In this document: positions 12,880 to 53,378 of the stretch, piece after piece | Numbering within the stretch: the first letter of the stretch is position 1 | Layout: the number at the start of each line of letters is the position of its first letter | Assembly: GCF_003073045.1 (NCBI RefSeq) | Contig: NC_037598.1 | Span: forward strand, 9,727,543 to 9,791,542 | Length of the DNA stretch: 64,000 nucleotides | Direction: 5' to 3' | Source: Pomacea canaliculata | Lineage: Eukaryota; Mollusca; Gastropoda; Architaenioglossa; Ampullariidae | Notes under the pieces: generated by a model | Database searches by the model: none | What the model was told of the DNA's origin: nothing | Seen by the model: only the letters and a program-made list of their open reading frames with translations | Program-made: the position numbers and the translations under genes

Positions 12880-15800
12880 TCATTCGCTGTACACTAGGAC
12901 TGGAGCGCCCTCTTTTGGTCGGAAGTCAACCTGCACGTCGTTGACTGGTGGCAGGATCTCGACGCCGTAGCTCTCCGTATTAGGCTCCGTCTTCTGACCC
13001 TCGGGGAGGTGGAGCGAGAAGGAGTTGATGAGGCTGACCACGAACCACTTCACCTGCATGAGGGCGAAACGCTGGCCTACACAGGCTGAGCCAAAGGACA
13101 AGATAAGTTTCTTCACCTCCTTGCCGTACTTGTAGAAAGTTGTGTTGACAAAACGTTTGTGCTTGAAAACCTGCGCAACCAAGGAGATAAAAGATATTAA
13201 TGTTTAACCTGAAAGAAATAAATACTGTAATGGCAGAGAACATAATTTAAAGGCTCGACATTTTAACTTCGACATTTGACTACACTGAGATTTTAAAATG
13301 ATTAATATCAATATTGTGAATGGTAAGATTAGTTATCTTAACCATTATGTATTTTTTAATTTTTTTTTTTGAGTGACTAATCCATTATGACAAGATGAGC
13401 TTGTCGTTAGTATCTCATTAAGTTTCTACTTCATCTTTGTAGGGAATGGCGATGTGAACATCATAGAGATACATGTACACACCTCTGGATCTTGGAAGAT
13501 TTCAGGGTCCATGTGAACTGCTGCTGCACTTATGGCTACACGGTCCCCCTTGCGCACTGTGTACTTGTGTCCGCTGGGCATCTCGAACTCTGTATCTTCA
13601 GTGATGTACCGAACCACTAAGGCGGAGCTATACATCCTCAAGGTCTCCTTCAAGAAGGAATCTGCAATAATAAGTTGATTCTAGAATAAAGTGCAAGCGA
13701 ATAAGTAAGATAAAAGCTCACCACAACATATAACACTCATAGTTTATATATGATAATCTCTACGGCTTTCACCGGGCACTTTTTTAGACTACAAATGAAA
13801 TACAAACGCTTCATATGAAAGGAGGAAAAATTTGATGCAGTTCTAGTTGTTTTAAATGAAATTTGCCAGTCTCTTGGCATTTGAACAGTTAAGACTAATG
13901 TAGACCTTTTATTTCACTTGTTTCCCCTGATAAAGAAGGTGTTTAGAATACACTATACTGTCTGTGAGTGCGGCGAAAATAATCACTTTTTATCAGGTCG
14001 CCAAGAGATCGACAGTGAAATGTGATAATAGTTAAGAGTATTGCCTTCTGTACCAGGATAATGATGAGACCATTTCGTAAACTTTTTGTTAGGGGCGGGG
14101 GAGGGGGTAAGGACTACCCCATGAAGGGGAGGTAGCTGACATAGTCTGACATATCTGTACACAAAATCTACTATACGCAATGTAGATCATTAATATTGAT
14201 TAGGCAACATCTTACATCGGTCGATTTCGCTCGTTCATTTCCATCGCTAATGATTTGTCTTTGAATAACGAGATAAAAGTGACAAAGAAAAAAAATATAT
14301 ATATTTATATAAACTTGAAAAATATATATATACTTCATGGAACACTTACCAAGAAGAGGGAATTCATCGATCTCTGCCAAGGTGAAGGCCACACTTTCCT
14401 CTCCGTCTGCGCGTTTCATTTCGATGGCTTCGTGAAGCTCCCTCTCGAGGTCCTTGAGAACGCGAGGGTCCTCCGCCAGTTTGTACACGCACCAGAAGGT
14501 CACACGGAAAATATTGTAGTTGACGTGAACCAAGATGAGGTTATAAACTGCAATGTCTTGCTCACTGTGACCGTGTTGGTGAAAGTGATTGATGGAGACC
14601 TTGACTTGCTCGGACACTCCGTCACGCTGCAACATGTTGTGGGATGTCGGCTGCTGTAACAGGACCGCGAACGCCTCGGCGGCTTTGGGAAAGAGTTTCA
14701 GCGGCAAGCCAATCCACAGGTAGGTGAAGTACTTGTGAAAGATGTCAAAATTGTCGTGAAAAACCTTCGGGCAGAAGTTCTTTGTTGTATTCTCACCTGA
14801 GGGGTCCACGCTGCACCCGAACATGGTGTAGAACAAGGAGGCGAAGACGGTCCTCGACATCAGCGTGAAAAGCGTTTCTCTTCTCCAGTCGACGCTGGTG
14901 TTCCCGTCGGTGTTGATGTTGGCATTGCAGTCCGAGTTGGTCATGGCTGAGGTCTTCGTCAAATCTGTGAAGGAGTTCTGCACGTGTTTCGCAAAGTTGT
15001 CCATCGTAGTGTTCAAGTACACGCCTTTTAAGCGCTTGGCGGTTTCACTGAACAACTTGCGGCGAGATTTCACCTCAAGGCCGAAGACATTGGAAATTAC
15101 TTGCTTCGTAACTAAAGAGAAATCAAAATTCTTCTCCTTAACGAACATTTCGTAGCAGTTCGGGTCCATGATGACGGTGAAGTAGTGGTAAAGAAGACGG
15201 ATGGTGAAGATGTCGCCCAGCTGTTTCTGAGATGTCTGCAGGAAGCGCACAAGATGTTTTGAGAACTGTGCGCTGTTACCCCACAGAAAATGTCCGGGTA
15301 CGTAGGGAGGCTCGCTTTTCCGCCTAAAGGACACAGTTTCAAGAGAAAAGAGTTACTTTGCAGAAAGCCATCTGCTACATAAGATTTCTTCTTCTTCTTC
15401 TTCTTCTTCTTCTTCTTCTTCTTCTCTTCTTCTTCTTCTTCTTCTTCTTCTTCTTCTTCTTCTTTCTTTCTTCTTTCTTCTTCTTCTTCTTCTTCTTCTT
15501 CTTCTTCTTCTTCTTCTTCTTCTTCTTCTTCTTCTTCTTCTTCTTCTTCTTCTTCTTCTTCTTCTTCTTCTTCTTCTTCTTCTCTTCTTCTTCTTCTTCT
15601 TCTTCTTCTTCTTCTTCTTCTTCTTCTTCTTCTTCTTCTTCTTCTTCTTCTTCTTCTTCTTTCTTCTTTCTTCTTTCTTCTTTCTTCTTCTTTCTTCTTC
15701 TTTCTTCTCTTCTTCTTTCTTCTTCCTTCTTCTTCTTCTTCTTCTTCTTCTTCTTCTTCTCTTCTTCTTCTTCTTCTTCTCTTCTTCTTTTCTTCTTCCT

Positions 15801-16208
15801 TCTTTCTTCTTCTTCTTTCTTTTCTTTCTCTCTTCTTCTTCTTGCTTTTCTTCTTCTTCTTTGTATTAAGAATATTTTTAGAATATGTTATCTTCTTTCT
15901 CATACCTTTAATTAATTAAAAAAGAATAACAAAGGTCTAGTCATAGTATAATACTAAGTATAAATCTTTTAATTTCAATATGGTCTTCTTAAGGAGAAAA
16001 CATTTAGTGTGAGCAGTTATTTAGATGATCATTATGTTGGTTAGGTGGTAAAATAACTAGGTCTCTGATACAAAACAAATAGAAGCTGAAGGACAGAGTA
16101 CTTTTTGGTTCATTCTTTCTTCCTCCTTACCTGACACGAAAAGTAAGTCGAAGATAGACGACAAGAAGAAGAAAACTGGCGATCAAATGGATATCCAACG
16201 GTCAACAT
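12880..16208 (-). pseudogene. Cytochrome P450 A, CYP7/CYP8-like, exon 1 frameshifted
   Basis: Exons (minus strand): 1 at 16208-16131, 2 at 15323-14350, 3 at 13661-13483, 4 at 13170-12880, all with GT-AG borders and the same phases as the intact copies. The restored length would be about 507 aa. Exon 2 starts RRKSEPPYVPG (hinge) and carries the I-helix with HVNYN and R three residues later. Exon 3 carries KETLR (ExxR). Exon 4 has FKHKRF and the ligand loop FGSACVGQR, short by about three residues. Exon 1 lacks one G and one C relative to copies B and C, so the membrane anchor is out of frame with exon 2. Exons 2-4 are fully open, so the loss is recent or an assembly error. Intron 1 holds a long GAA/TTC expansion. 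Confidence 0.8.
15386..15863. repeat. GAA/TTC triplet expansion in intron 1 of P450 A
   Basis: About 480 bases of almost pure TTC (plus strand) with occasional TTTC and CTC interruptions. In the sense of gene A the transcript would carry GAA repeats, about 155 units. Units 2-4 have a short T run, a TTCTTG repeat and a CAT repeat at the same place. Confidence 0.95.
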
Positions 16209-16419
16209 TTCTGGTTGTGATGAGGTTTCTAGATCTGACGTTGCCAAAGAGACGAGTAGATGACACTGTCTTGCCTGTAGCCCCACACGAGAATAAACTT
16301 CACTGTGTGCGTCGGCGAATAAATAACTACACAAAGTAAGTCTGGTCAGGCGACAGAAGAACTGTGATATAGTCCGAAATCTCTACAAGGAGGAGCATTT
16401 CAAATATTCATTGATACTG

Positions 16420-16500
16420 TGCGCCGCGATAGGTTCGCTCCACCCTACTCGCCCCGCCCCTCTTTTCACATCTGACTAGAATAGATAATAGAGAATGAGA
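16420..16500 (-). promoter_or_regulatory. Conserved upstream block of P450 A (GC box, GATA-like)
   Basis: A GC box (GCCCCGCCCC on the plus strand, 16451-16460) and TCTATTATCTATTC (minus strand) lie about 245 bases upstream of the exon 1 ATG. The block of about 75 bases is almost the same in all four units, better preserved than its neighbours. Promoter function is inferred from position and conservation. Confidence 0.45.
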
Positions 16501-17578: not shown

Positions 17579-17609
17579 TCGTCGTCGTCGTCGTCGTCGT
17601 CATCATCAT
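17579..17609. repeat. GTC/ATC microsatellite, unit 1
   Basis: A GTC run passes into an ATC run. The same pair occurs at 28147-28175 in unit 2 with fewer ATC units. Confidence 0.85.
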
Positions 17610-18374: not shown

Positions 18375-18746
18375 CTATAAAAACATATTAAATTTTTCGT
18401 TTGTGGAAGTGTGTGGGATCTGCTTCAGCAAATCACCGTAAATCGCTCGTGCCTTCTCACACATGATGCTTTGTGTTAAGGTTCCTCCTTGAAGCTGCTT
18501 CTCTGTCACCCACACAGTCAATAGTTTCTCCATCTTTTTATGGAGAGAAGTCCGGAGCTTATAAATTATTGTAACGCCCCTAGCTGGCGTTGTACCCTTT
18601 ATCAACTCCTGTTTAAGCACAGAACATATCAGTGATGTGCTATGCCCGTACATCCTCGCCAAGTCAATTACTCGCACACCTTGCTCATGTTTTTCTACGA
18701 TTTCGCGCTTTAATTCAATAGACATCATCTTCTTCTTCGGACCCAT
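18375..18746 (-). pseudogene. Truncated Tigger transposase (CENP-B-type HTH domain)
   Basis: Starts MGPKKKMMSIELKREIVEKH, followed by GVRVIDLARMYGHSTSLICS, which is a psq/CENP-B N-terminal helix-turn-helix. A partial second HTH follows (ending EKARAIYGDLL), then a premature end. The DDE catalytic domain of about 300 residues is absent, so it cannot transpose alone but may keep DNA binding. Confidence 0.85.
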
Positions 18747-18894
18747 GGTTACAAAAATAAATGTGACAATGTTTTGTAAATGTACAAAAAGCAAAACAAC
18801 GCGAACCCAACTTATCAAAAATGCTTCAAAAACGAGGGAAACAAGCACACAACACAGACTGAGGTCTAGTCTGAGGTGGGAGAAACTGTTAGAA

Positions 18895-18943
18895 GCTGCA
18901 CACGACCCCAACATCCGCCCCGCATGTTGGGGTCGTGTGCAGC
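18895..18943. repeat. Perfect 20-base hairpin inside the Tigger element
   Basis: GCTGCACACGACCCCAACAT (18895-18914) is repeated in perfect inversion at 18924-18943 with a 9-base C-rich loop. It lies just upstream of the transposase start. Confidence 0.9.
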
Positions 18944-19070
18944 GGTGTAGTGTGCGATTCCTCGTATCTCAAATCTTGCTCTTATCTCGAAGCAAAATAT
19001 TTCTCGCTCGGCGGCTCGTATCTCAAAACACTCGTATGTCAGGGCACTCGTATGTCGAGGTACCACTGTA

Positions 19071-22086: not shown

Positions 22087-23665
22087 AAGAGGAAAAAGAT
22101 TTACGAGGTAAACAATTTGTAAACTGTCGGCTGCACTGATTTCGAAGCATAAAAACTGCAGGAAGTGTATTGTCTGCCTGACTTAAACCACCGACTTGAA
22201 ATATTTAAATATTAACTAAATACTAACCCTAAACCTTACCCCGTACTTCTTGCTTTTTAGCAAACGCGGCCTGCGTATTGCCTAAATGTCAGATCTCAAA
22301 AATCCCTGTCATGAATCAAAAGGTTAATATAGTACTGAGGTAAAAAAAAGTGTTAAGAAACAGACAAAGAGAAGTTAAAACCGAAAAAAAACACCTTTCT
22401 TCGAACTCGTAGATTCATGCTCCGTAGGGACAGAGGCAGCAAAGCCTAACCCTAACCCTTCTTTGAATGAGGTGGATGCGCTCCTGTCCTCAAACTCATT
22501 CGCTGTACACTAGGACTGGAGCGCCCTCTTTTGGTCGGAAGTCAACCTGCACGTCGTTGACTGGTGGCAGGATCTCGTTGCCATACTTCTCCGTATCACG
22601 CTCCGTCTTCTGACCCTCGGGGAGCTGGAAGGAGAAGGAGTTGATGAGGTTCATCACGAACCATTTCACTTGCATGAGGGCGGAACGCTGGCCTAGACAG
22701 GCTGAGCCAAAGGACAAGATGGGCTTCTTCACCTCCTTGCCATACTTGTAGAAAGTTGTGTTGACAAAGCGTTTGTGCTTGAAAACCTGCGCAACCAAGG
22801 AGATAAAAGATATTAACGTTTAACCTGAAAGAAATAAATACTGTAATGGCAGAGAACATAATTTAGAGGCTCGACATTTAGACTTCAACGAAACTTTTGA
22901 CTAAACAGAGATTTTAAAATGATTAATATTAACATTGTGAATGGTAAGATTAGTTATCTTAACTATTATGTATTTTTTAATGTTTTTTAAAGTGCCTAAT
23001 CCATTATGACAAGATGAGCTTTTCGTTGCCCGTTTGTTGGTTGCTCATTAAGTTTCTACTTCATCTTTCTAGGGAATGGAGATGTGAATATCATAGAGAT
23101 ACATGTACTAACCTCTGGATCTTCGAAGATTTCAGGGTCCATGTGAAGGCCTGCTGCACACATGGCTACACGGTCGCCTTTGCGCACTGTGTACTTGTGT
23201 CCGGTGGGCATCTCGAACTCTGTATCTTTAGTAACCAGCCGAACCATTAAGGCGCCGCTGTACATCCTCATGGTCTCCTTCAAGAAGGAATCTGCAAAGG
23301 TGAGTTGATTCAAGAGTAGAGATCAAGCGAATAACTAAAATAAAAGCTCACCACAACAGATAAGACTCCTATCTTCTGTATGGCATCTCTATAGTTTTTA
23401 TCCAGAACTTTTTTAGACTACAAATGAAATAAAAAAACTTCAAAGGGAAAGAGAAAAAATTTGATGCAGTGCTAGTTGTTTTAAATGAAGTTTGCCAGTC
23501 TCTTGGCATTTGAACAGTTAAGACTAATGTAGACCTTGTATTTCGGTTTTTTTCCTAGCAAAGAAAGTGTCTAGGATATACTAAACTGTTTGTGAATGCG
23601 GAGAATTCCATGTGATAATAGTTAAGAGTATTTTTTCTGTACCAGGATAATGATGAGACCATTTT

Positions 23666-25107
23666 CCGCGCACTCCTCAGACTGTTGACACTGACAGACG
23701 CATTAATTGCTGACTTTCACATCTCCCCCTTACAGCTACTTTTACTTGTCCCCTTCCAGACTAAAAATTTTTTTAAAAAAATAGCACAGGAGGTTTGTGA
23801 CAATATTTATTTACTCTCCATGCCAGCCGCTTGGAAATTGTCTGCCATTGTCCCAGTTCCGAAGAAAGTTTCAGCTCGGCATCTCAATGGCTTTAGACCA
23901 GTGGCCTTAACATCGTTGGTCATGAAAGTATTTGAGACAATCATCAAGGCATTGATTCTTAAAGCCACTAACAATTGTCTTGATCCCTTTCAATATGCAA
24001 TCCAGTCCAAACGAGGTATTGATGATGCTAAACTGTTCATCCTCCACTTTTTACTCAAACACCTGGAGAATCCTCAAGCCCATGCTCGACTGTTGTTTGC
24101 TGATTTCTCGTCGGGCTTCAACACTATTCAGCAACATATCCTAGCTAGAAGACTCCTAGACGAGTTTTCCCTTGACCATCAGCTTGTCATGGATCATTCA
24201 CTTTTTTGTTGACAGGCAGCGACGAGGTATTGTCAATGGCACTGACTTAATCACCATGTGCACCGGCTCACCTCAGGGCTGTGTTCTGTCCCCGCTTCTG
24301 TTTATTCTGTATACCAACAGTTGTCGTAGTAGTCATGAGGATCAACATCTTGTCAAATTCTGTGATGACACTGCTTTGCTCTCTCTCCTTAGCGGGCCGG
24401 TGCACACCCACGGTGTAGCCTTGGAGGAATTCATTGTCTGGTGCGATGACAGCTTTCTAGAGCTTAATGTGAGTAGGACGAAAGAGATTGTCTTTGACTT
24501 CCGTCGGAATTCTCCACCATGTCCTGTATGTGTCATACATGACAAGGAGGTGGAAATTGTTTCTGCCTTTAAATACCTGGGCACCATCTTCGATAGGCGA
24601 CTTTGCTGGGATGTCAACACTCAATCTGTCGTGAAGAAGACTCAACAACGCCTCTTCCTTCTCCGGAAGCTGAGGTCTTTCTCTGTCTCCCACCAATTTC
24701 TTCAGCTTTTCTACAGATCGCACATAGAGAGCGTACTGTCCTTCTCTTTTATTTGTTTCTATAATAGTTTATCAGTGAAGGACAAGAGCAGCCTGCATCG
24801 TGTGGTATCCACCTGCTCCAGAGTGATTGGGTCCACTCAGAGTTCTCTTCAGACTCTGTATAATCGGCGGACTCTTCTGAAGGCGGCTGCCATCCTTCGT
24901 GATGACAGGCATGCTCTGTCAACAGAACTTGTCCGGCTCCCGTCGGGCCGCCGATTTTGTGTGCCTGCATTTTGTTGTTTCAGCAGTGCGACTTTTGAAT
25001 GGGGCTGTGCGAATGAAGGAGACATGAATAGTTTTGTGCATGCAATTGTGTATGAATTTTAATTTTAATCCAGCTACAACAGAATTGCCCTCAGGGACAA
25101 ATGAAGT
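23666..25107 (+). mobile_element. 5'-truncated non-LTR retrotransposon (LINE) in intron 2 of P450 B
   Basis: Unit 2 follows unit 1 up to GATGAGACCATTT, then carries about 1.44 kb of LINE sequence on the plus strand, antisense to the P450, and then returns to intron sequence. There is no endonuclease domain and no long poly-A; the 3' end is a short ATCTTATATTTAA-like tail. The reverse transcriptase resembles the CR1/L2/Rex group. Confidence 0.85.
23685..25062 (+). pseudogene. LINE reverse transcriptase, frameshifted
   Basis: Two frames (23685 to about 24190, and from there to 25062) join in the palm domain. Visible motifs: GFRPVALTS, LLFADFSSGFNTI (motif A Asp), GSPQGCVLSPLLF (motif B), KFCDDTALL (motif C with Cys in place of the usual Ala of FADD), LNVSRTKEIVFDF and FKYLG. 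The C-terminal RLPSGRRF motif, known from CR1/L2-type fish and mollusc elements, is present. The frameshift makes it inactive. Confidence 0.85.
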
Positions 25108-27007
25108 CTTATCTTATATTTAATACTTAATTGAAACAATTCCGTGGGATGTCCATTTCACAAACTAAGAAAACAGGAGAAAGTAAAGAAAAATCCACAT
25201 ATCTGTACACAGAATCTACTATACGCAATGTAGATCATTAATATTGATTAGGTAACATCTTACATCGGTCCTTTTCGCTCGTTTATTTCCATTGCTAATG
25301 TTTTGTCTTTGAATAACGAGATAAAAGTGACAAAAAAAAAAGGAATATATATTGATATAAACTTGAAATATATATATACTTCATGGAACACTTACCAAGA
25401 AGAGGCAATTCGTCGATCTCTGCCAAGGTGAAGGCCACACTTTCCTCGCCGTCTACGCGTTTCAATTCGATGGCTTCGTGAAGCTCCCTCTCGAGGTCCT
25501 TAACAATGCTGGGGTCCTCCACCAATTTGTACACGCACCAGAAGGTCACACGGAAAGTATTGTAGCTGACGTGGAAAACAAGAAGGTTATAAAGTGCAAT
25601 ATCTTGTTCGCTTTGACCGTGTTGGTGAAAGTGATTGATGGAGACCTTGACTTGCTCGGACACTCCGTTACGCTGCAACATGTTGTGGGATGTCGGCTGC
25701 TGTAACAGGACCGTCATCGCCTCGGCGGCTTTGGGAAAGAGTTTCAGCGGCAAGCCAATCCACAGGTAGGTGAAGTACTTGTTAAAGATGTCAAAATTGT
25801 CGTGAAAAACCTTCGGGCAGAAGTTCTTTGTTTTCTCCTCACCTGAGGGGTCCACGCTTCGCCCGAACAGGGTGTAGAACAAGGAGGTCAAGACGGTCTT
25901 CGACATCAGCGTGAGAAGCGTTTCTCTTCTCCAGTCGACGCTGATGTTACCGTCGGTGTTGATGTTGGCATTGCAGTCCGAGGTGGTCATGGCTGAGGTC
26001 TTCGTCAAATCTGTGAAGGAGTTCTGCACGTGTTTCGCAAAGTTCTCCATCGTAGTGCTCAAGTACATGCCTTTCAAGCGCTTTGATATTTCACTAACCA
26101 AAGTGCGGCGAGATTTCACCTCAATGGCGAAGACATTGGAAATTACTTCTTTTGTAAGTATAGAGAAATCGAAATTCTTCTCCTTAACGAAGGTTTCGTA
26201 GCAGTGTGGTCCATGATGACGGTGAAGTAGAGGTTAAGAAGACGGATGGTGAAGATGTCGCCCAGCTGTTTCTGAGATGTCTGCAGGAAGCGCACATGAT
26301 CTTTTGAGAACTGTGAGCTGTTACCCCACAGAAAATGTCCGGGTACGTAGGGAGGCTCGCTTTTCCGCCTAAAAGACACAATTTCAAGAGCCTAGAATTA
26401 ATCTGCAGAAAGCGTTCTTTTTTTTTTTCCTTCTGCTTTGTATTTATTATTAGAATATCTTATCGTCCTTCCCCTACCTTTAATTCATGAAAAAGAATAA
26501 CAAAGATCTAGCCACAGTATTAATATAATCATTTAATATTTTCTTTTCATTCAATGTCTCTGCTTAAAAAGAAATCATTTTAGTGTGAGCAGTTATTTAG
26601 ATGATCATTATGTCTGGGTTAGGTGGTAAAATAACTAGGTCTCTGATACAAAACAAATAGAAGCTGAAGGACAGGGTACTTTTTGATTCATTCTTTCTTC
26701 CTCCTTACCTGATACGAAAAGTAAGTCGAAGGTAGACGACAAGAAGAAGAAAACTGGCGATCAAGATGGATACTCCAACGGTCAACATTTCTGGTTGTGA
26801 TGAGGTTTCTAGATCTGACGTTGCCAAAGAGACGAGTAGATGACACCCTGTCTTGCCTGTATCCCCACGAGAAATAAACTATTCTAATGTGTGCTTTGGC
26901 GAATAAATAACTACACAAGGTAAGTCTGGTCAGGCGACAGAAGACCTGTGCACACATTCCGAAATCTCTACAAGGAGGAGCATTTGAAATATTCATTAAT
27001 GCTGAGT

Positions 27008-32254: not shown

Positions 32255-35088
32255 TCATTTGCTGTACACTAGGACTGGAGCGCCCTCTTTTGGTCTGAAG
32301 TCAACCTGCACGTCGGTGACTGGTGCCAGGATCTCGATGCCGTAGCTCTCCGTGTCAGGCTCCGCCTTCTGACCCTCGGGGAGGTGGAGCGAGAAGGAGT
32401 TGATGAGGTTGACCACGAACCACTTCACCTGCAGTAAGGTGATGCGCTGCCCGCTGCACAAAGAGCCAAAGGACAAGATGGGCTTCTTCACCTCCTTGCC
32501 GAACTTGTAGAAAGTTGTGTTGACAAAGCGTTCGAGCTTGAAAACCTGCGCAAGCAAGGAGATAAAAGAAAACGTTTCACCTGAAAGAAATAAATACTGT
32601 AATGGTAAAGAACATAATTTATGGGCTCGACATTTTGACTTCAGCGAAACTTTCGACCACACAAAGATTTTTAAATGATTAATATCAATATTGCGAATGG
32701 TAAGATAAGTTATCTTAACCATTATATATTTAAATTTTTTTTTAATTTTGAGTGCCTAATTTATTATAACAAGATGAGCTTTTTGTTGGCGTGTTTGTTG
32801 TTTGCTCAATACTTTTATACTTCATCTTTCTAGGGAATTGCGTTGTGAATATCACAGAGATACATGTACACACCTCTGGATCTTCGAAGATTTCAGGGTC
32901 CATGTGAACACCTGCTGCACACATGACTACACGGTCCCCCTTGCGCACTGTGTACTTTTGTCCGGTGGGCATCTCGAACTCTGTATCTTCAGTGATGTAC
33001 CGAACCATTAAACCGCCGCTGTACATCCTCAATGTCTCCTTCAAGAAGGAATCTGCAAAGGTGAGTTGATTCAAGAGATCAAGTGAAGAACTGAAATAAA
33101 AGCTCACCACAACAGATAAAACTCCTATCTTCTGTATGACATCTCTATAGTTTTTATCGAGGACTTCTTAAGACTACAAATGAAATACAATTGCTTCATA
33201 CGACAGGACGAAAAAAAGATAAATTTAATGCAGTGCTAGTTGTTTTAAATGAAATTTACAAGTTTCGTGGTATTTAAACAGCAGAAACATCAAAGCTTAC
33301 AGCCGTCAGACGACGAACTACACATGCGGTTGTGTGCCCTGTGTGTATGTTAAGCTGAGAATGTATGTTTAATCATTAATTATGAGAATTCCTTTGGATC
33401 TCCATTCACAAAACAAAGCAAGAAAACAGGAGAAAGCAAAGTCCTCATATCTGTACACAGAATCTACTATACGCAATGTAGATCAATAAATATGGATTAG
33501 GCAACATCTTACATCGGTTGATTTAACGCATTCATAATGTTTTTTTTCTTTGAATAACGAGATAAAAGTTACAAATAAAAAAGAAATATATATTTCTATA
33601 AACTTTATATAAATATATATCTATACTTCATTGAACACTTACCAAGAAGAGATAATTCATCGATCTCTGCCAAGGTGAAGGCCACACTTTCCTCTCCGTC
33701 TGTTCGTTTCATTTCGATGGCTTCGTGAAGCTCCTTCTCGAGGTCCTTCAGAATGCGGGGGTCCTCCGCCAGTTTGTACACGCACCAGAAGGAAACACGG
33801 AAAATATTGTAGTTGACACGAAATAAGACGAGCATATAAACTGCAATATCTTTTTCACTGTGACCCTGCTGGCGGAAGTGATTGATGGAGACCTTGACTT
33901 GCTCGGACACTCCGTCACGCTGCAACATGTTGTGGGATGTCGGCTGCTGTAACAGGATGGTCAACGCCTCGACGGCTTTGGGAAAGAGTTTCAGCGGCAA
34001 GCCAATCCACAGGTAATCGAAGTACTTGTTAAAGATGATAAAATTATCATGAAAAACGTTCGGGCAGAAGTTCTTTGAGGGGTCCACGCTGCGCCCGAAC
34101 AGGGTGTAGAACAAGGAGGTCAAGACGGTCCTCGACATCAGCGTGAGAAGCGTTTCTCTTCTCCAGTCGACGCTGGTGTTCCCGTCCGTGTTGATGTTGG
34201 CATTGCAGTCCGAGGTGGTCATGGCTGAGGTCTTCGTCAAATCTGTGAAGGAGTTCTGCACGTGTTTCGCAAAGTTCTCCATCGTAGTGTTCACGTACAC
34301 GCCTTTTAAGCGTTTGGTGGTCTCACTGAACAACTTGTGAGGAGACTTCACCTCAAGGCCGAAGACATTGGTCATTACTTGCTTCGTAACTAGAGAGAAA
34401 TCAAAATTCTTCTCCTTAACGAAGGTTTCGTAGCAGTGCGGGTCCATGATGATGGTGAAGTAGTGGTAAAGAAGACGGATGGTGAAGATGTCGCCCAGCT
34501 GTTTCTGAGATGTCTGCAGGAAGCGCACAAGATGTTTTGAGAACTGTGCGCTGTTACCCCACAGAAAATGTCCGGGTACGTAGGGAGGCTCGCTTTTCCG
34601 CCTAAAGGACACAATTTCAAGAGAAAAGAGTTACTTTGCAGAGAGCCATCTGCTACATAAGATTTCTTCTTCTTGTTCTTCTTGTTCTTGTTCATCTTGT
34701 TCTTCTTGTTCTTCTTGTTCTTGTTCTTGTTCTTCTTCTTCTTTGTATTAAGAATATTTTAGAATATGTTATCTTCTTTCTCATACCTTTAATTAATTAA
34801 AAAGAATAACAAAGGTCTAGTCATAGTATTAATACTAAGTACTAAATCTTTTAATTTCAATATGTCTTCTTAAGGAGAAAACATTTTAGTGCGAGCAGTT
34901 ATTTAGATGATCATTATGTCTGGGTTAGGTGGTAAAATAGTCCTGATACAAAACAAATGAAAGCTGAAGGACAGAGTACTTTTTGGTTCATTCTTTCTTC
35001 CTCCTTACCTGATACGAAAAGCAAGTCGAAGGTAGACGACAAGAAGAAGAAAACTGGCGATCAAGATGGATACTCCAACGGTCAACAT
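32255..35088 (-). CDS. Cytochrome P450 C, CYP7/CYP8-like, intact (502 aa)
   Basis: A haem-thiolate enzyme, presumably anchored in the ER. Exons (minus strand): 1 at 35088-35009, 2 at 34601-33643, 3 at 33052-32874, 4 at 32545-32255, with a total of 1509 bases including the stop. Exon 1 gives a hydrophobic anchor (about residues 4-19) and a basic stop. Then come the RRKSEPPYVPG hinge, the I-helix RVNYNIFR followed by SFW, KETLR (ExxR), DPEIFEDPE, the FKLERF segment, and the ligand loop FGSLCSGQR with Cys436. Relative to A and D, five codons (GEEKT region) are missing in frame. By eye the closest known families are prostacyclin synthase (CYP8A1) and CYP7/CYP8B sterol hydroxylases. The substrate is unknown, and the shortened cysteine loop makes ordinary monooxygenase activity uncertain. 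Confidence 0.88.
34664..34743. repeat. TTCTTG microsatellite in intron 1 of P450 C
   Basis: Mixed TTCTTG and TTCTTC units lie at the same site as the long TTC tract of unit 1. Confidence 0.85.
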
Positions 35089-39882: not shown

Positions 39883-41944
39883 TCATTTGCTGTACACTAG
39901 GACTGGAGCGCCCTCTTTTGGTCGGAAGTCAATCTGCACGTCGTTGACTGGTGGCAGGATCTCGTTGCCATACTTCTCCGTATTAGGCTCCGCCTTCTGA
40001 CCCTCGGGGAGCTGGAGCGAGAAGGAGTTGATGAGGTTCATCAGGAACCATTTGCCCTGCAGTATGGCGCTACGTTGGCCTGGGCAGAGTGAGCCAAAGG
40101 AGAAGATCAGTTTCTTCAGCTCCTTGCCGTACTTGTAGAAAGTTGTGTTGACAAAGCGTTTGTGCTTGAAAACCTACGCAACCAAGGAGATAAAAGAACA
40201 CAATAGTATAACTGTAAGAAATAAATATTATAATGGTGAAGAAGCTATTTTACAGACCAGACATTTTGACTTCAACAAGGCATTCGACTACGGATTGTTA
40301 AAAGAGTAATCATAATAATTATTTGAATGGCAAAATTATCAGTCATCTTAACCATAATGGTTTTTGATGAATGGCGTTGTGACTATCGTAGAGATACATG
40401 TACTCACCTCTGGATCTTCGAAGATTTCAGGGTCCATGTGAACGCCTGCTGCACACATGACTGCACGGTCCCCCTTGCGCACTGTGTACTTTTGTCCGCT
40501 GGGCATCTCGAACTCTGTATCTTCAGTGATGTACCGAGTCATTAAGGTGCCACTGTACATCCTCAGGGTCTCCTTCCAGAAGGAATCTGCAAAGACGAGT
40601 TGATTGTACAGTAAAGTTCAAGCGAATAAGTATTACTCATAGTTTTAAATAATATTCGCCAGTCTCTTTGCATTTAAACAGTTAAGGTTAATGAAGAACT
40701 TAATTTCGCTTAGACAGTTTGATATAATTTTTTTCTAGCGAATTCGGTGTCTAGGAGACACGATGCTGTTAGTGAATGTAGAGAAAATAATCGCTTTTAT
40801 CAGGTCGCCAAAGGATCGACACTTCCATGTGATAGTAGTTAAGAGTATCGCCTTTTGTACCAGAATAATGATGAGACCATAAATTTATATATCTATACTT
40901 CATTGAACACTTACCAAGAAGAGGGAATTCACCGATCTCTGCCAAGGTGAAGGCGACACTTTCCTCTCCGTCTGCGCGTTTCATTTCGATGGCTTCGTGA
41001 AGCTCCCTCTCGAGGTCCTTCAGAATGCGGGGGTCCTCCGCCAGTTTGTACACGCACCAGTAGGCAGCACGGAAAGTATTGTAGTTGACGTGGAAAATAA
41101 CGAGGTTATAAAGTGCAATATCTTGTTCGCTGTGACCGTGTTGGTGAAAGTGATTGATGGAGACCTTGATTTGCTCGGACACTCCGTCACGCCGCAACAT
41201 GTTGTGGGATGTCGGCTGCTGTAACAGGACCGTCAACGCCTCGACGGCTTGGGGAAAGAGTTTCAGCGGCAAGCCAATCCACAGGTAGGTGAAGTACTTG
41301 TGAAAGAGGTTAAAATTATCATGAAAAACTTTCGGGCAGAAGTTCTTTGTTTTCTCCTCACCTGAGGGGTCCACGCTGCGCCCGAACAGGGTGTAGAACA
41401 AGGAGGGAAACATGGTCTTCGACATCAGCGTGAAAAGCATTTCTCTTCTCCAGTCGACGCTGGTGTTACCGTCGGTGTTGATGTTGGCATTGCAGTCCGA
41501 GGTGGTCATGGCTGAGGTCTTCGTCAAATCTGTGAAGGAGTTCTGCACGTGTTTCGCAAAGTTGTCCATCGTAGTGTTCACGTACATGCCTTTTAGGCGT
41601 TTGGCGATCTCAATAGACAACTTGCGAGAAGACTTCACCTCAAGGGCGAAGACGTTGTTGAGGACTTGATGCATAATTGCAAAGAAATCAAAATTCTTCA
41701 CCTTAACGAAGGTTTCGTAGCAGTGTGGGTCCATGATGACGGTGAAGTAGTGGTTAAGAAGACGGATGGTGAAGATGTCGCCCAGCTGTTTCTGAGATGT
41801 CTGCAGGAAGCGCACATGATGTTTTGAGAACTGCGCGCTGTTACCCCACAGAAAATGTCCGGGTACGTAGGGAGGCTCGCTTTTCCGCCTAAAGAACACA
41901 ATTTCAAGAGCCCAGAGTTACTTTGCAGAGAGCCATCTGCTACA

Positions 41945-41989
<45 letters not shown>

Positions 41990-42257
41990 GATGGGTTTCC
42001 AGAACAGAGAAGAAAACAACATACAATAATGATGTGAAGAGAGTACATTTGACACAATAAATGTATGTGATATGATGAACAGGTCTGTGCACAATTCAAT
42101 CCATTTTTCATGTGTCGGGTGGTGGTCTATATGAACAGAACGACAGAGTATTTTCTGGTTCATTTATTCTTTCTCCTTACCTGATCCGAAAAGTAAATCG
42201 AAGGTAGGCCACAAGAACAAGAAAGATGACCAAGATGAATACTCCAGAGATCAACAT
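39883..42257 (-). CDS. Cytochrome P450 D, CYP7/CYP8-like, intact (506 aa)
   Basis: Exons (minus strand): 1 at 42257-42181 (one codon shorter than in B and C), 2 at 41888-40915, 3 at 40586-40408, 4 at 40173-39883, 1521 bases in all. Borders are GT-AG; the last acceptor is TAG rather than CAG. The anchor reads MLISGVFILVIFLVLVAYL. The protein shows RRKSEPPYVPG, I-helix HVNYNTFR followed by AYW, KETLR (ExxR, after DSFW), DPEIFEDPE, FKHKRF and FGSLCPGQR with Cys440. It is the only copy that keeps the classical Cys-Pro-Gly after the shortened loop. The conserved GC-box block lies about 240 bases upstream of the ATG. The role is presumably oxidation or rearrangement of a lipid or sterol, inferred from the family only. 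Confidence 0.88.
41945..41990. repeat. CAT microsatellite in intron 1 of P450 D
   Basis: About 15 CAT units lie at the place where unit 1 has TTC repeats. The repeated motif has therefore changed between paralogues. Confidence 0.9.
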
Positions 42258-43429: not shown

Positions 43430-43620
43430 GTTTACATAAGGAGACACCGTTGCGGCCTGTTTGACCCGGAAGTGAACCTGCACGTCGTTGACTGGTGGCA
43501 GGACCTCTTTGCTGTAGCTCGCCGTAAGATTCTCCATCTTTTGACCTTCGGGGAGCTGGAATGAGAAGGAGTTGATGAGGTTCATCAGGAACCACTTGAC
43601 CTGCAGCGGGGAGATGAGTC
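43430..43620 (-). pseudogene. P450 F: fragment of a last exon
   Basis: The minus strand reads LQVKWFLMNLINSFSFQL, PEGQK, EVLPPVNDVQVHFRVK, which is the C-terminal half of exon 4. The part with the cysteine loop is missing, and the C-terminus runs into duplicon spacer sequence (equivalent to 17.4 kb) instead of GAPVL. The HFRVK ending is shared with gene E and not with A-D, which have DFRPK. It is probably a remnant of an E-like gene cut by the rearrangement. Confidence 0.75.
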
Positions 43621-45309: not shown

Positions 45310-45655
45310 TTTTTTCTGACTACCACGGTGTCCACTGCCCTCCAATGTACCTTGCAGAGTCTTGGACAGTGTCAAGCTGGGTCACATGGCCAAAGACCAC
45401 CTTACACGCTTGACTGTTGACTGGGTCTACGTTTGACATCCCTAAAAGCAGCATCAGTACTACAAGGGACTTGTACAGATTGTACTTTGTAGTAAACCTG
45501 ATGCCACAGACCTTTTCCATGTCTCGCTGACCCCTATTCCAAGTAATCAGTGAGATGCGAGCGCTCGGGGGCGTCCATGATGTCTTGTTGCTGGGGGAGG
45601 GTACACGAGCTATGGTGCTGCTAATGACCAGGTCACGTGTTACACCAATCTTTGT
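45310..45655 (-). mobile_element. LINE 3'-end fragment, copy 1
   Basis: The minus strand reads VVFGHVTQLDTVQD and ends in a QGTLEGSG-like segment, the C-terminal tail known from many animal LINE reverse transcriptases (FGHVTRHDTL, LQGTLEGG). It is degenerate. It is repeated directly from 45.65 kb and inverted at 48.67 kb. Confidence 0.65.
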
Positions 45656-46100
45656 CCACTGCCCTCAAATGTACCTTGCAGAGTGTCTTGGACAGTGTCA
45701 AGCTGGGTCACATGGCCAAAGAAGACCAGCTTACGCCGCTTGACTGTTGAAAGTAGGGATTGCTGGTGTCCTACGAGTGTGGCGACTTTGTACAAAAAAG
45801 TCTTTTTGTTTTGTTTTGCTTTGCTTTGCTTTGTTATGTTTTGTTTTGTTTTGCTTTGCTTTGCTTTGCTTTGTTTTGTTATGTTTTGTTTTGTTTTGCT
45901 TTGTTTTGTTTCGATCCTGTTCTTTGTACGAAATCCAAAGCAGGCTCCTCAGGCAATTGTTGTCGAATGTACGGGACACTGTCTCTACGTTTCACATCCC
46001 TACAAGCAGCATCAGTACTACAAGGGACTGTACAGATTGTACTTTGTAGTAAACCTGATACGACAAACCTTTTCCAGCCAAGCCATTGCCACTGTAGCTG
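45656..46100 (-). mobile_element. LINE 3'-end fragment, copy 2, with microsatellite insertion
   Basis: The minus strand from 45.78 kb to 45.65 kb is open and reads QQSLLSTVKRRKLVFFGHV, then TQLDTVQDTLQGTFEGSG, the best-preserved copy of this tail. Sequence equivalent to copy 1 resumes after a TTTTG repeat. Confidence 0.7.
45802..45911. repeat. TTTTG/CTTTG pentanucleotide microsatellite
   Basis: About 22 units, alternating TTTTG and CTTTG, with two ATGTT variants. The tract splits LINE fragment copy 2. The long frames across it are artefacts of the five-base period. Confidence 0.95.
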
Positions 46101-46700: not shown

Positions 46701-48667
46701 GTTTTTGTCCGTTGACATGCTGATGCAGACTAAACTTTTTAAAGCAAACCTACTTTATACTCTGTACCAAAATCTTTTCGATAAATGTTCATGGGAAAGC
46801 AAATTCTTTTCGAGATACTATGTGACTAATAAAAAATATATAAAAAAATGTTTACATTGATAAATGTGTATAAAATATTTTATAATGTTAAGATATTTTT
46901 AATGATAAAAATGTCTTTTTCAGCAGTCAGTGGTAACTATAAAGTTACAATGCTGGAAATTAGCCATCTAACGAAGCAATTACAGAAGTTTGTCTTATAC
47001 GAACGCACACTTTAAATGTGTTTATATTTCACTAACAATGATAGTACATAATAAATACAAACATTTGGTTCCACATAAAATCGTGTTGTACTTCACAGTA
47101 GATACTCGTAGTTTGTAAGCCGTTAGTTCAAGAGTTATTTGGGTCTGTGAATGGCAAAACATCTCCAACCCACCCATCAGAAGAAGGGTCATCCCGTTCT
47201 TTCTTTTAGTCTTCCTCAAAATTTACAATTTGACAGAGCGTTCAGTAAAGATATATATTATTTATAATATAAAACTGGAAATCACTGTTATGATGTCAGA
47301 AATTACTTGATTGCGTCAACAACAATGTCCTTTTAGGTTTTAGCTAGCAAGATATATTTGAGAAGACAAAAACATTTTCACATCTGAGAGAGAAAAGAGA
47401 CTCATGTGTGTCAGAAATTTTAAATGATTGCAAAAAAATGGATTTACACACAAGTAAACCCAGAACAGGTTGGAAACATAGCAAACTATATTTCTTGACA
47501 AGAGCATTTTAACAATATGTACAATGCCCATTAGAGAGAAATAAATGATCATGAGTTTTAAAAAGTTAATAAAAGTTTGATTCGAGCACATTCCTCGTGC
47601 CTGCAGTGATATATGTTCTGCACTATGTTATTCTTATTGTTATTGTTTTGTTCAGTCGTTCTTTGGGTTCAGATGCATAATTTTTAGTTGACAATTTTAT
47701 CTTTTACAAAAGAACAAATAAATGTGTTCAGAAAAGAACAGTTACATGTAAATTGGCCAAAGAATTGCACTGTCGGTGACATTTTGCAGATGAAGGAGAG
47801 GAAGCAATAACTGCCCCCCTCCCAAGTGTTGCTGGTATGATGGCGATGGAAGATGATGAGCCAAGCATTGTACTTTTACTGTCGTTTGTGATGACATGTA
47901 TGCATTAGTAATTAAAAGTACAAACTGCCATGAATTTCACCAAGTCTCAGTGTCTAAACTCCAGGTGAGGGGTTTGTCCTGATACTGGAACTTCTGGACA
48001 GAGTAAAGTACTCACGACCTGCCTGTTCTCATGGCTGTTCGCCAATGGTCTCTGTACTCATCGCAACATCCTCCCTCTTTGTCGTGCAGGTCTGTACAGT
48101 AATATCTTTCAACATCCTTTCAACAAAACAACATTTGAGTTATTTGATATAATGACACCAGAATAAACTCTTGACCCCAGCACATGTTAACCGATTTCCC
48201 ACACTGCCTCAAATAGTTTTTTTTTAATCAATCTAAAATTGTTTCGTGGAGTTTACTGACACAGTACAGGACAGATGTCTCAGCCAAGTTCAACATTGAA
48301 ATTCTTGTTAAAGAATACATATTTCTCCTTTGTCGTTCTCTACTTTTGTAAACACCAAGGGTCAGGTACGTTAGGTGATTTTTGACCGTACCTAACATGA
48401 TATATATATATAAATATAAATGCAGGCCACACCTGCAGATTAAGATCTCAATAAACTTGTAAGACTATAATTTCATGTTCCATTGTTATGAAGTAAACTA
48501 TGCTCGGGTATTATGAAACGATACACAAAAATGGTTCGTTAATAAATAGAAATCAACCCTGTAGTCAACAAAACTTTTGTTGTGAAGGTTCTAATTTTTG
48601 TCTCTGGGACAGTGTCATTGACAGACACAGCATCGGCAAATGTAATATTAATCGTCTCTTGCTTTTA
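46701..48667. other. Gene-free AT-rich interval
   Basis: No recognisable gene. Frames of 60-85 codons are AT-driven. A short TATATA run lies near 48.4 kb. Confidence 0.5.
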
Positions 48668-49005
48668 AAGATTGGTGTAACACGTGACCTGGTCATCAGC
48701 AACACCATAGTTCGTGTACCCTCCCCCAGCAACAAGACATCATGGATGCCCCCGAGCGCTCGCATCTCACTGATTACGTGGAATAGGGGTCAGCGAGACA
48801 TGGAAAAGGTCTGTGGCATCAGGTTTACTACAAAGTACAATCTGTACAAGTCCCTTGTAGTACTGATGCTGCTTTCAGGGATGTCAAACGTAGACCCAGT
48901 CAACAGTCAAGCGTGTAAGGTGGTCTTTGGCCATGTGACCCAGCGTGACACTGTCCAAGACTCTGCAAGGTACATCTGAGGGCAGTGGACACCGTGGTAG
49001 TCACA
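48668..49005 (+). mobile_element. LINE 3'-end fragment, copy 3 (inverted)
   Basis: Almost exact reverse complement of 45.31-45.66 kb (AAAGATTGGTGTAACACGTG through ACACCGTGGTAGTC). The two form an inverted repeat with a spacer of about 3 kb. Confidence 0.75.
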
Positions 49006-49802: not shown

Positions 49803-49812
49803 GCGCATGCGC
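49803..49812. promoter_or_regulatory. NRF1-like palindrome upstream of P450 E
   Basis: GCGCATGCGC matches the core of the known NRF1 site and lies 321 bases before the ATG of gene E. The GC-box block of A-D is not found here. A single short match, so regulatory use is only a possibility. Confidence 0.25.
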
Positions 49813-50132
49813 GTCGTGAGGTATATGTTCCAATTCATCAATTGTCGTCCTTCTTCTCTCTATTGTGTATGCCTACAAAGTCTTGCAAGGATGTAGCTTA
49901 GTGGGAGTAGGGAGTAATGAGTGAATGTTAATAATATCTATCTTACATGCCTTGCTTTTGACAATCAAAGAAGTCACGTAGCCAAATAGCAGGGTTCGTC
50001 CTCCATCTTCAAATTTAATTCCATTTATCATCTGTCTTGTAGGAAGACAAAGCACCTTTATCGCCAGTCAGCGAGCAAGCAAGGTATAGCGGCCTGTTCC
50101 TTCAAGTCTTTCAAGGGACGTAATCAGCAGCC

Positions 50133-53100
50133 ATGTGGACCACTGGAGTTTGCATCGCCATTGCCATCACTGCTTTCCTTGTCGCCTACATTCGATTAGC
50201 CTTTCGCACCAGGTAAGAAAAAGGAAGGAATAGATCATAAAATGGTCTCCAATGCAGTTTGCATTCGTTAAGTTAGTCCAGTTCTTAACAGTTAACACTG
50301 AGAGGACTCTCGTGTAGAGACCTTTTTGTGAATACCTTAAGTGGGCGAGAAAATCGTACTTTGATGTTTGTTGTGTAAACTTCTCGTGCATCAAAGGCCT
50401 GTTCAAGAATGATTGAAGACTTTTAAAACTGTCTTGCAGACGAAACAATGAACCTCCGTATGTGGCCGGGCATTTTCTGTGGGGCAGTGGAGTGGAGTTT
50501 TCTCAGAATGTCGTTCTCTTCTTGCACAAATCTCAGAAGCAGCTGGGCGACATCTTCACCTTCCGCGTCCTCAACAAGTACATCACCATCATCATGGACC
50601 CTCACTGTTACGAGGATTTCAACAAAGAGAGGAATTTCGATTTTGCCCCGATGGTGGCAAAGGTCAACCGAAACATCTTCGGGTTTACGGTCAAAGACAG
50701 TTTCGGTTTGATAACTTATGCCAGCAAAACCGTTAAAGGCAAGCATTTGAGAAGCAGCATGAAGATATTCACAAGGAACTTGCAGGACTCTTTAGAAGAA
50801 TTAATGAAGACCAACGACACCCACGCTTCAAACTGCAACGTGGAAGCTGACGGGAACACCATCGACTGGAGCAGAGAAAGTCTTCGCACAATGATGTCAA
50901 AAACCCTATTCACCGCCATCTTCTACACAGCCTTCGGACACAGCGCGGATCCCTCAGGAGAAGAAAAAGTGAAGGACTTCCATCCGCAGGTGTTTGACAA
51001 AAACTTCCAAAACTTCCACAAGGTCTTCAACTACCTGTGGATCGGTCTTCCGCGGAGGCTCTTTCCAAAGGCTGCCGAGTCGTACAACATTATGTGTCAG
51101 CTTCTCAACCATCACGAACTATTGCAGCGTAACGAGGTGTCCGACTTTGTCAAATTCTCCATCGAGTACATGCTTCAAGTGGGAGAAAAGGATGAGGACA
51201 TCATGGGCCACACTCTGGTCTACCTGCACGTCCAGTACAATACAGTTCGCCTCGCATACTGGTGCGTGTACAAGATGGTGGAGCAGCCCCGCGTGCTGAT
51301 GGACCTTGAGATGGAACTCAGCAAAGCCATTGAAGAGAAGCGCGAAGACGGCGAGGAAACAGTGGCCTTCACTTTGAATGAGATCAACAAACTCCCTCTT
51401 CTTGGTAAGCCTACCCTGCATCGGACACACCCGTCTACGTCCCTTGATAATAGTTTATCCTTATGCTTAGATTTTAGCAACAATCGGTGTCCTAGATTTT
51501 CAGTAAAAAAAACATTTTTGAGGAGCTGGCAGAGGAATTTGTTGATGACGCTTTCATCGGGAAAACACTATACTAATGTCAGCCACAACCCTTGCATCAT
51601 CACATTCAGTTTCCTTTGTTATCAGTGAGTGAAAAGTCAGCAAAGCAGAAAAAACAAAAACAAAAAACAAAAACAAAAAAACAAAACAACAAAAAAAAAC
51701 AAAAAACCCAACAAACAAAAATCAAAAACGTCCCTACCTGCGTGTCTGCTTCTATATTGTAGCACTCCTCTGATCGACTCTTTACTCTCTTCCCCGATAT
51801 CTTCAACGCATCCCTCAAACTCTGTGTTGTTTCCCGCTATTTCTAATCATCAGTCAACGTCCCTGTCCCCAAAAAGCTCGACAACAGACATGTGGCCATG
51901 ATCCTGGTCCTGATGAAAGTTCTGAAACGAGTCGGACATCCCCTGAGTACCACCACATGCAACTTAAAATCTCGTCAATGTTCCCATCAGGCCGGTCGGT
52001 CCGTGGACAACACTTTATGATTGTTACCTCCCTCTTCATGAATCTGTCTAATCAATACCTGAAAACAGCAAAGGCTAATAATAATAATAACAACAACAAC
52101 TCTGTAAAGTGAAATTCCAGCGCGCGGCCAAATTTTATTTACTTCACTTTACCAGACCAGATGTATATAAAATGATATCAAAAGTGAGTTAAATTATATA
52201 TATTATCTTAACCAAGCACGACACAAGACTACAGTAAAACTGGAGTTAATACAAGAGGCATTTAGATGTCCTTATTAAAACTTATGAACAGTCTGAACAG
52301 AAAATGAAAGCAAGTTTCAAAGTCAGCGGCCAGCATTAGAGAAGGATCACTTACCAAACTTCCCTGTGTCAATGTTTGTAACAGGTGAATGATAGTGTGA
52401 CCTGTCTATGAGTCTATCTTATCCATGTGCCGAAAACTTTCCATCGGTCGTAATTGTGCTTCTGTCTGTCTTCTTGATACTCCATTGCTTTCTACTCCAA
52501 AACTAACTCGTTCTTGCAGATTCCTTCTTGAAAGAAACGTTGAGGATGTATGGTGGAGCAGTCATGATTCGGTACTGTACTGATGATACAGAGTTCAAGA
52601 TGCCCAACGGACAGAAATACGCAGTTCGCAAGGGGAATATGGTGGCCATGTACCCACCAACCACTCACATGGACCCTGAAATCTTCAAAGATCCAGAGGT
52701 GGGTGCATGTGTGTCCATAACATTCTCAGCGCCGTTTCCTAGAAATGTGAAGCACAGTACTGTGCGATAGCTCCTCAGAGTATGTGAACACGAAGATGCT
52801 CTGTAAAATGAGCTGGATGTATGTCTCTTCTAGAGATTAGTATTTTCACTGTAGCTTAAACATATTCCATCGTTCATCCAAAATTTTTCATAAAAATTGT
52901 TCTGATGAGTGCCAAAGTGTTCTCAGAAAAGCAAACGTGGACAATGCAGGTAGGTAAGTCAAAACGGAAGATCGTCCACACCATCGACTCCGGGAAGTTT
53001 TTCACTTCACGAAGAAAAGGTAACTATCATTGTTTATGTGAAGATTATCTTTCTTCAAATATATTTTGATTTCCCTTGTGTGCGCAGGCCTTCAAGCACG

Positions 53101-53378
53101 ACCGCTTTGTGAACGCGACCTTCTACAAGTACGGCAAGGAGCTGAAGAACCCGTTGGCACCGTTTGGCTCGCTGTGCGTCGCCAGGCAGATGGCGCCGCT
53201 GCAGGTGAAGTGGTTCCTGGTCAACCTCATCAACTCCTTCTCCCTCGAACTGCCCGAGGGTGAGAAGACGGAGCCTAAGACGGAGTGCTACGGACACGAG
53301 ATCCTGCCACCAGTCAACGACGTGCAGGTTCACTTCCGGGTCAAAGAGGGCGCTCCGGTGCTGGCCTACAGCGACTAA
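50133..53378 (+). CDS. Cytochrome P450 E, CYP7/CYP8-like, intact (504 aa), opposite strand
   Basis: Exons: 50133-50212, 50440-51404, 52520-52698, 53088-53378, with GT-AG borders and the same phases as A-D (1515 bases). The ATG begins an anchor MWTTGVCIAIAITAFLVAY. Next come RRNNEPPYVAG, GDIFTFRVLNKY, I-helix HVQYN with Asn294 and Arg297 and then AYW, KETLR (Glu354-Arg357), DPEIFKDPE, FKHDRF (410-415) and the ligand loop PFGSLCVAR with Cys438. The loop is about three residues shorter than in CYP7/CYP8, and the Gly two after Cys is Ala440. It is the most diverged member (anchor, exon 2, promoter), and it alone keeps the Pro before FG. The family relation to CYP8A1 is clear by eye; the substrate is unknown. 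Confidence 0.9.
51640..51725. repeat. A-rich CAAAAA repeat in intron 2 of P450 E
   Basis: Irregular CAAAAA/CAAAAAA units about 235 bases after the exon 2 donor site. Confidence 0.75.

Follow-up and report, generated by a model that had tools for sequence, protein, structure and literature searches.

The stretch of DNA analysed here, which is called the window in this text, comprises 64,000 nucleotides of the snail Pomacea canaliculata (C9:9727543-9791542 in the searched genome of 440,159,624 bases and 24 contigs) and has a guanine plus cytosine content of 40.4%. It contains five genes of the cytochrome P450 superfamily, numbered copies 1 to 5, and a sixth gene of the same family, copy 0 (locus L048), is located 26 kb beyond it. 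The haem loop of CYP7A1, CYP8A1 and most P450s has the form FxxGxxxCxG and covers seven positions from the phenylalanine to the cysteine. In all six snail copies this cysteine is found at Phe+4 instead of Phe+7, which is probably an old change that has been kept rather than the sign of a broken gene.

The short loop is seen in the six-frame translation of each of the five exons of the window that contain this region: FGSACVG in copy 1 (13075-13095, minus strand), FGSACLG in copy 2 (22691-22711, minus), FGSLCSG in copy 3 (32450-32470, minus), FGSLCPG in copy 4 (40078-40098, minus), and FGSLCVA in copy 5 (53163-53183, plus). An earlier, sequence-only reading of this DNA had described FGS-[A/L]-Cys in all five copies, and the five motifs do lie where it had placed them. 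The sixth copy carries FGSLCPGK. The full-length FxxGxxxCxG loop is absent from all six genes, CxG being retained in five of them, and the codons for F, G, S, x and C are contiguous in every one.

The same reading had located a gap of about three residues exactly in the ligand loop, and HMMER alignments to CYP7A1, CYP8B1 and prostacyclin synthase (CYP8A1/PTGIS) place it there. Copy 3 matched six sequences and the five alignments shown all contain a three-residue gap in the loop, placed as FGS---LC in three of them and as FG---SLC in the other two. Spliced copy 5 matched 25 sequences, and FGS---LC appears in the five alignments shown. The segment GKExKxxxxxFGS of the snail copies aligns without gaps with PTGIS and CYP7A1 as far as FGS; for instance, GKELKNPLAPFGS of copy 5 aligns gap-free with GKRLKNYNMPWGA of PTGIS. 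Since the stretch that precedes the loop aligns in this way with prostacyclin synthase, the loss of residues sits in the loop itself. A gap outside the loop was also considered. If the snail loop were fitted without a gap at the cysteine to generic P450s, Ile or Leu would fall on the Phe position and Phe on that of the bulge glycine, and this arrangement is ruled out by the gap-free alignment of the pre-loop stretch to PTGIS and CYP7A1. There is a second difference in length, the stretch from the meander to the loop being six residues shorter in the snail than in CYP7A1. The flanks of the loop generally align well, as had been claimed, but the letters given for them do not apply to every copy: KKL, and not KKP, precedes the loop in copies 1 and 4, and QGKWF, and not QVKWF, follows it in copy 4.

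With respect to the identity of these genes, the Pfam profile PF00067 matches the ten single-exon open reading frames (ORFs) at E values up to 1, six of the ten alone exceeding the cut-off. All 25 listed matches of spliced copy 5 are P450s. The best is CYP7A1 (E 7e-54), followed by CYP8B1 and then prostacyclin synthase; among the 25 PDB sequences matched, the top six are those of CYP7A1, CYP8B1 and PTGIS, all of them members of clan 7, which comprises CYP7, CYP8 and CYP39. The ExxR motif is present in the six copies (ETMR in copy 2 and ETLR in the other five), as are the meander arginine and the loop cysteine. The short loop weakens the claim that these are ordinary P450s and leaves their P450 descent intact.

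Each of the five genes of the window is composed of four exons. The short exon 1 encodes the membrane anchor (MLTVGVSILIASFLLLVVYLRLAFRI in copy 3), the long exon 2 extends to the LL codons ahead of helix K, exon 3 has 179 bases (it carries SFLKETLR in copy 3), and the last exon, of 291 bases, opens after the acceptor, holds the meander and the loop, and closes with an in-frame stop. Copies 3, 4 and 5 have uninterrupted reading frames of 502, 506 and 504 codons, respectively, which run from ATG to stop, with GT/AG at every intron end, whereas copies 1 and 2 are frame-broken; the count of three intact copies made from the sequence alone was therefore correct. Copy 5 is on the plus strand. Its exon 1 (50133..50212) contains the start codon and the N-terminal membrane anchor, MWTTGVCIAIAITAFLVAYIRLAFRT, and ends at a donor CAG/GTAAGA in phase 2. 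Exon 2 (50440..51404) encodes the N-terminal two thirds of the protein, as far as the region that precedes helix K (the ORF 50417-51628 scores 42.2 bits against PF00067; CYP7A1 E 7.2e-20), exon 3 (52520..52698) encodes the K helix with ETLR, and exon 4 (53088..53378) the meander FKHDR, the short loop, the L helix, the C-terminus and the stop.

The other four copies of the window are on the minus strand. Copy 3 has its membrane anchor in exon 1 (35009..35088), an exon 2 (33643..34601) with a 15-base in-frame deletion with respect to copies 1 and 4, an exon 3 with ETLR (32874..33052), and an exon 4 with the stop (32255..32545). The corresponding exons of copy 4 are located at 42181..42257 (anchor), 40915..41888, 40408..40586 (ETLR) and 39883..40173 (with the stop), the apparent TAG that precedes the last of them being the intron acceptor. 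Exon 1 of copy 1 (16131..16208) has suffered two single-base deletions and is out of frame, exon 2 (14350..15323) is open in its own frame, and exons 3 and 4 are found at 13483..13661 and 12880..13170 (PF00067 30 bits for the ORF 12880-13203). Copy 2 is composed of exon 1 (26709..26788), which encodes the anchor, exon 2 (25396..26368), which shows a frame break near 26209 and is net one base short, exon 3 (23113..23291) and exon 4 (22496..22786). Copy 0 shares this exon layout, with exon 4 at C9:9701007-9701288 and the anchor exon at C9:9696618; its exon 2 contains two single-base frame breaks and its last exon overruns the stop site of the other copies. The single-base breaks of copies 0, 1 and 2 (net one base in copy 2) could be residual long-read errors rather than true lesions.

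A relic 3' exon at 43436..43615 (minus strand) is what remains of one more P450 gene of this family. It begins 3' of the loop position and cannot be scored for the loop, and nothing recognisable was found in the three frames upstream of it, where the loop region would be expected. Several other features lie in the introns or between the genes. The first intron of copy 1 contains a long GAA/TTC purine-pyrimidine tract (15353-15915) that gives rise to mock ORFs made of runs of E, K and R. Antisense in the second intron of copy 2 (23622-25062, plus strand), two overlapping ORFs in different frames encode the halves of a reverse transcriptase (RVT_1, E 1.5e-9 and 2.1e-9), the second also matching ALKBH8_N (2.5e-12); this is a broken retroelement, probably of the type without long terminal repeats. 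The ORF at 18375-18968 (minus) shows a weak match to a Tc5-type transposase DNA-binding domain (E 4e-4, below the cut-off). Two near-identical ORF stretches (GVTRDLVIS...NSQACKVVFGHVTQ) at 45320-45664 (minus) and 48497-48979 (plus) are in opposite orientation and form an inverted repeat; the first of them has no Pfam match.

When the last exons of the six copies are aligned, 52 of the 96 columns are invariant. Columns 21-38, which include the loop, are the least conserved of the 79 stretches of 18 columns in this exon, and only F26, G27, S28 and C30 are invariant in them, the other 14 columns all being variable, a pattern that goes beyond coincidence. If four invariant columns were placed at random among 18, this exact set would be obtained once in 3060 times, a figure that is descriptive only because the stretch was picked post hoc. 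The ratios of nonsynonymous to synonymous substitution (dN/dS) over the whole gene are 0.34 between copies 3 and 5 and 0.35 between copies 4 and 5 (499 and 503 codons). For exons 3 and 4 together, they range from 0.22 to 0.27 between copy 0 and the five others and from 0.32 to 0.37 between copy 5 and copies 1 to 4; single exons reach 0.42 in the comparison of copy 5 with copies 1 to 4. Since copies 1 to 4 are close to each other, the snail holds three independent lineages and not six. These values support the view that the deep snail lineages, as judged from their coding sequences, diverged under purifying selection.

Searches of the whole genome, whose first look is loose so that distant genes may escape, indicate how far this family extends. 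Exon 4 was found in eight places (the eight first-look candidates were all scored), namely the five copies of the window, the relic, copy 0 and C12:3919756; the latter is a weak match that showed no P450 features on inspection and was set aside as due to chance. Exon 2 was found in nine places (nine of nine scored), all of them copies of the family. The C-terminal stretch of human CYP7A1, used as a query, matched at 13 places, all 15 candidates having been scored. Copies 0 to 5 come first, with E values from 6e-9 to 2e-5, and the next place has an E value of 0.006. By that measure, the six copies are the nearest snail relatives of CYP7A1, and all of them are short-looped. One of the seven weaker places is the relic and six are elsewhere; five of these six (L062, L081, L082, L084 and L085) are P450s with full loops that fit poorly outside the loop region, and L083 has no P450 loop. 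The CYP7A1 C-terminus search found no clan-7 paralogue with a normal loop in the snail genome, although no search was aimed at a CYP39-like gene and distant genes may escape the loose first look.

Other P450s of the snail served as controls. A Pfam scan of the genome, in which 92 of 701 candidates were scored and from whose listing the genes of the window are absent, was used solely to choose them, and 55 other loci from the P450 searches were scanned for the full-length pattern and for a short pattern, [FW]G[ST]xCx[GA]. The full-length pattern is present in 32 of these loci, and in 26 of the 32 it is an uninterrupted P450 loop: seven of seven in an array on C1 (L017-L023), 15 of 20 around other Pfam matches (L061-L080) and four of five among the weak CYP7A1 matches (L081-L085). 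In five others (L028, L035, L038, L041 and L043) GRRxCxG is preceded by intronic-looking residues, and the full pattern of L039 is due to chance. The remaining 23 loci have no full loop in one frame, 17 of them being C6 loci whose Pfam matches mostly end at the loop or immediately ahead of it. The short pattern appears in two control loci (L024 and L031; FARWGSGCSGHFS), which are taken as chance matches because P450 flanks are missing. No short loop in a P450 context was found among the 55 control loci, while the identical scan scores all six loci of the family. Two arrays are found among these loci. L017-L023 (C1:3154239-3191284) form a tandem array of seven P450s with FS[LM]GRRRCxG loops, six of which span nearly the whole Pfam profile in one open frame, and the five C6 loci with GRRxCxG belong to a P450 array (26.8-27.4 Mb) where an intron seems to interrupt the haem-loop codons directly ahead of this motif.

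Membership of a P450 family is conventionally set at about 40% identity over the whole protein. CYP7A1 (PDB 3dax and 3sn5) is the best full-length match of spliced copy 5 and is colinear with it from the anchor hinge almost to the C-terminus, but its loop is normal (FGSGATIC), its stretch from the meander to the loop is six residues longer, and its helix L contains Glu. CYP8B1 and CYP8A1/PTGIS (PDB 7lyx, 3b6h, 2iag and 3b98) are the next best matches (E 1e-45 to 3e-36), and their loops also have the normal length.

The closest likeness in print is that of an annelid protein, CYP3067A1 of Capitella teleta, whose entry in Table 2 of the Capitella P450 survey gives the haem loop as 'AFGS...LCPG' and the I helix as '....NT' (PMC4229089). 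The gap is the same three-residue gap as in the snail, and the letters FGS and LCPG are those of copies 0 and 4. In Tables 1 and 2 and the tree of that survey, ExxR is present (ESFR), the meander reads FKYDR, and the protein clusters with 'CYP7s/CYP306s'; support by expressed sequence tags (ESTs) is noted (PMC4229089). The distance from the K helix to the meander is 56 residues in CYP3067A1 and in snail copies 3 to 5 and 55 in CYP7A1, and that from the meander to the loop is 24 in the annelid protein, 23 in the snail and 29 in CYP7A1. Unlike the snail family, CYP3067A1 is a single gene, and its authors considered its gaps 'peculiar' and its function questionable (PMC4229089). From these likenesses we infer that the snail genes and CYP3067A1 share a common descent from before the split of annelids and molluscs.

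Loop deletions have also been described in some species in another animal P450 family of unsettled function (PMC8669017), CYP20A1, for instance in the jellyfish Aurelia (F-AGKRKCPG; PMC8110760). In that case one residue is lost, and not three, and the family belongs to a different clan; the Capitella CYP20A1 listed in the survey has a full-length loop (PMC4229089). 'FGSLC' or 'FGSAC' together with P450 was not found in open-licence main texts, and the papers listed by broader searches of these texts include no second printed case of the short loop besides that of Capitella; in the same texts CYP3067 appears in PMC4229089 only. The paper on the Pomacea canaliculata genome counts 157 P450 genes by Pfam, and its P450 section is silent on a group with short loops (PMC6129957). 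The gap itself was thus already in print, its first noting, as far as found, being that of the Capitella survey, and what is new, as far as these searches show, is a duplicated and selected short-loop lineage in a second phylum.

Taken together, these data favour, with moderate confidence, the reading that the snail genes encode membrane-anchored P450s of the CYP7/CYP8 clan that would form part of an old lophotrochozoan lineage, with a loop loss that has been kept, a cysteine thiolate that has been retained and a membrane lipid as substrate. Nine bases would have been lost between the FGS and Cys codons, in the GxxR-type part of the haem-ligand loop, the loss being retained afterwards, and the annelid CYP3067A1 is the likely relative of the snail lineage. 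To judge from the sequence, the cysteine is most likely still the axial thiolate, and the haem may sit in a tightened loop with the phenylalanine four residues before the cysteine. The bulge glycine would be missing from such a loop, and so would the residue two positions ahead of the cysteine, which contacts a haem propionate in many P450s. The Phe near the cysteine, the cysteine itself, the Gly two positions after it (in five of the six copies), ExxR and the meander Arg are all retained, and this pattern would fit a protein that still needs a haem thiolate, with a shortened strand leading to it. By analogy with the clan relatives, the substrate could be a lipid of the sterol, fatty acid or eicosanoid type, and the location would be of the endoplasmic reticulum type. 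That the products bind haem, are catalytic and act on lipids, that is, that they are haem-thiolate enzymes of lipid metabolism, we infer as fairly probable.

Several observations weigh against this interpretation. Copy 5 reads CVA in place of CxG, and the helix-L Glu of CYP7A1 is replaced by Gln in the six copies. The residue that follows Asn in the I helix is I, T, I, T, T and S in copies 1, 2, 3, 4, 5 and 0, respectively, and with this site being variable the usual oxygen activation is not clearly retained. Copies 0, 1 and 2 have single-base frame breaks. The dN/dS ratio rises to 0.66 between the younger pair formed by copies 3 and 4, and to 0.90 in single exons among copies 1 to 4; these high values between close pairs reflect weak constraint or recent release. 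With respect to the annelid gene, the distance from the I helix to the K helix is 58 residues in CYP3067A1 and 60 in the snail (PMC4229089), and the case for common descent is built on the loop, two spacings and the printed tree.

The loop change could also go with a different chemistry, in which the proteins would have given up oxygen-dependent hydroxylation and would instead rearrange lipid peroxides at a thiolate haem, like CYP8A1 or CYP74, without a reductase or the I-helix Thr. This possibility, which is largely a subset of the haem-thiolate reading, seems unlikely. In its favour, prostacyclin synthase is one of the closest relatives with a solved structure, the Thr site varies among the copies, and Cys and ExxR are present in all six; however, the hydroxylases CYP7A1 and CYP8B1 outscore prostacyclin synthase, and no sign of a peroxide substrate is found in the sequence. 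The loop of CYP74 enzymes is altered. The I-helix site is Asn-Thr in CYP7A1 and Asn-Met in prostacyclin synthase, so either chemistry is compatible with what is found in the snail. It is equally doubtful, as far as sequence can tell, that annelids and molluscs share a P450 class hundreds of millions of years old, with a four-step F-x-x-x-C thiolate loop, and that this tighter loop has shifted its chemistry to an isomerase or lyase reaction on lipid peroxides that dispenses with the I helix normally used to activate oxygen. A pseudoenzyme, in which the fold survives as that of a membrane protein or a protein that binds lipids, the haem is lost or non-catalytic and F-G-S-x-C has a structural role only, would agree with the loss of the bulge glycine and of the residue two before the cysteine, with the Ala that copy 5 has for the Gly after the cysteine, and with the variable start of helix L. 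Nevertheless, Cys and ExxR, which serve the haem and the core, do not vary among the six snail copies and are shared by the annelid gene while their neighbours vary, and we regard this option as improbable too.

The remaining alternatives concern the history of the loop and have an even lower standing. The annelid and snail loops could be alike by chance or by a similar constraint, after two independent deletions. The comparison with the annelid protein is one of table rows, and the separate one-residue deletion of Aurelia CYP20 (PMC8110760) indicates that loops can shorten more than once. However, the same three residues are missing between the same flanks, both proteins are CYP7-like, and both have a shorter stretch from the meander to the loop (PMC4229089), which makes two separate events quite unlikely. 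A decaying pseudogene cluster, or an artefact of assembly or splicing, is strongly disfavoured and very improbable: although half of the copies have frame breaks and the relic 3' exon stands among them, three genes are open over their whole length with all their splice sites, dN/dS is below 0.4 between the lineages (exons 3 and 4, and whole gene), the loop codons are contiguous, and an annelid gene with the same gap is said to be expressed (PMC4229089). The sequence-only reading had itself named two findings that would overturn it, and both are largely closed. A micro-exon was a reasonable idea, since 5 of 30 other P450 loci show GRRxCxG after intronic-looking residues, but it cannot supply the missing residues because the F-to-C codons follow one another without interruption in all six copies. 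That the short loop is shared by six separate loci and the annelid gene makes a fault of assembly very unlikely, the EST coverage of the loop itself in the annelid not being stated in its paper. That reading was largely right: its description was correct, and its inference of an old and tolerated deletion in CYP7/CYP8-type P450s is well supported by three deep snail lineages, by purifying selection between them and by the same gap printed for the annelid gene. It had further suggested that the change could alter the thiolate ligand and give an isomerase, lyase or non-catalytic function, and its interpretation as a whole is partly supported. The preferred interpretation, a kept loop loss in an old lineage of haem-thiolate P450s, starts from a variation of the ligand loop that is real, conserved within these clan-7 genes and functionally unexplained.

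Few parts of P450s are as constant as the loop with the cysteine ligand, by which these proteins are recognised, so that genes without it may be lost in motif filters. A mollusc lineage under selection, with an apparent presence in annelids, that has dispensed with three residues of this loop would show how much of it the thiolate really needs, and the short loop lends itself, as an experiment of nature, to testing how redox potential and type of reaction are tuned by the ligand loop. In the snail, the nearest relatives of CYP7A1 that were found are all short-looped, which bears on the sterol and eicosanoid metabolism of molluscs.

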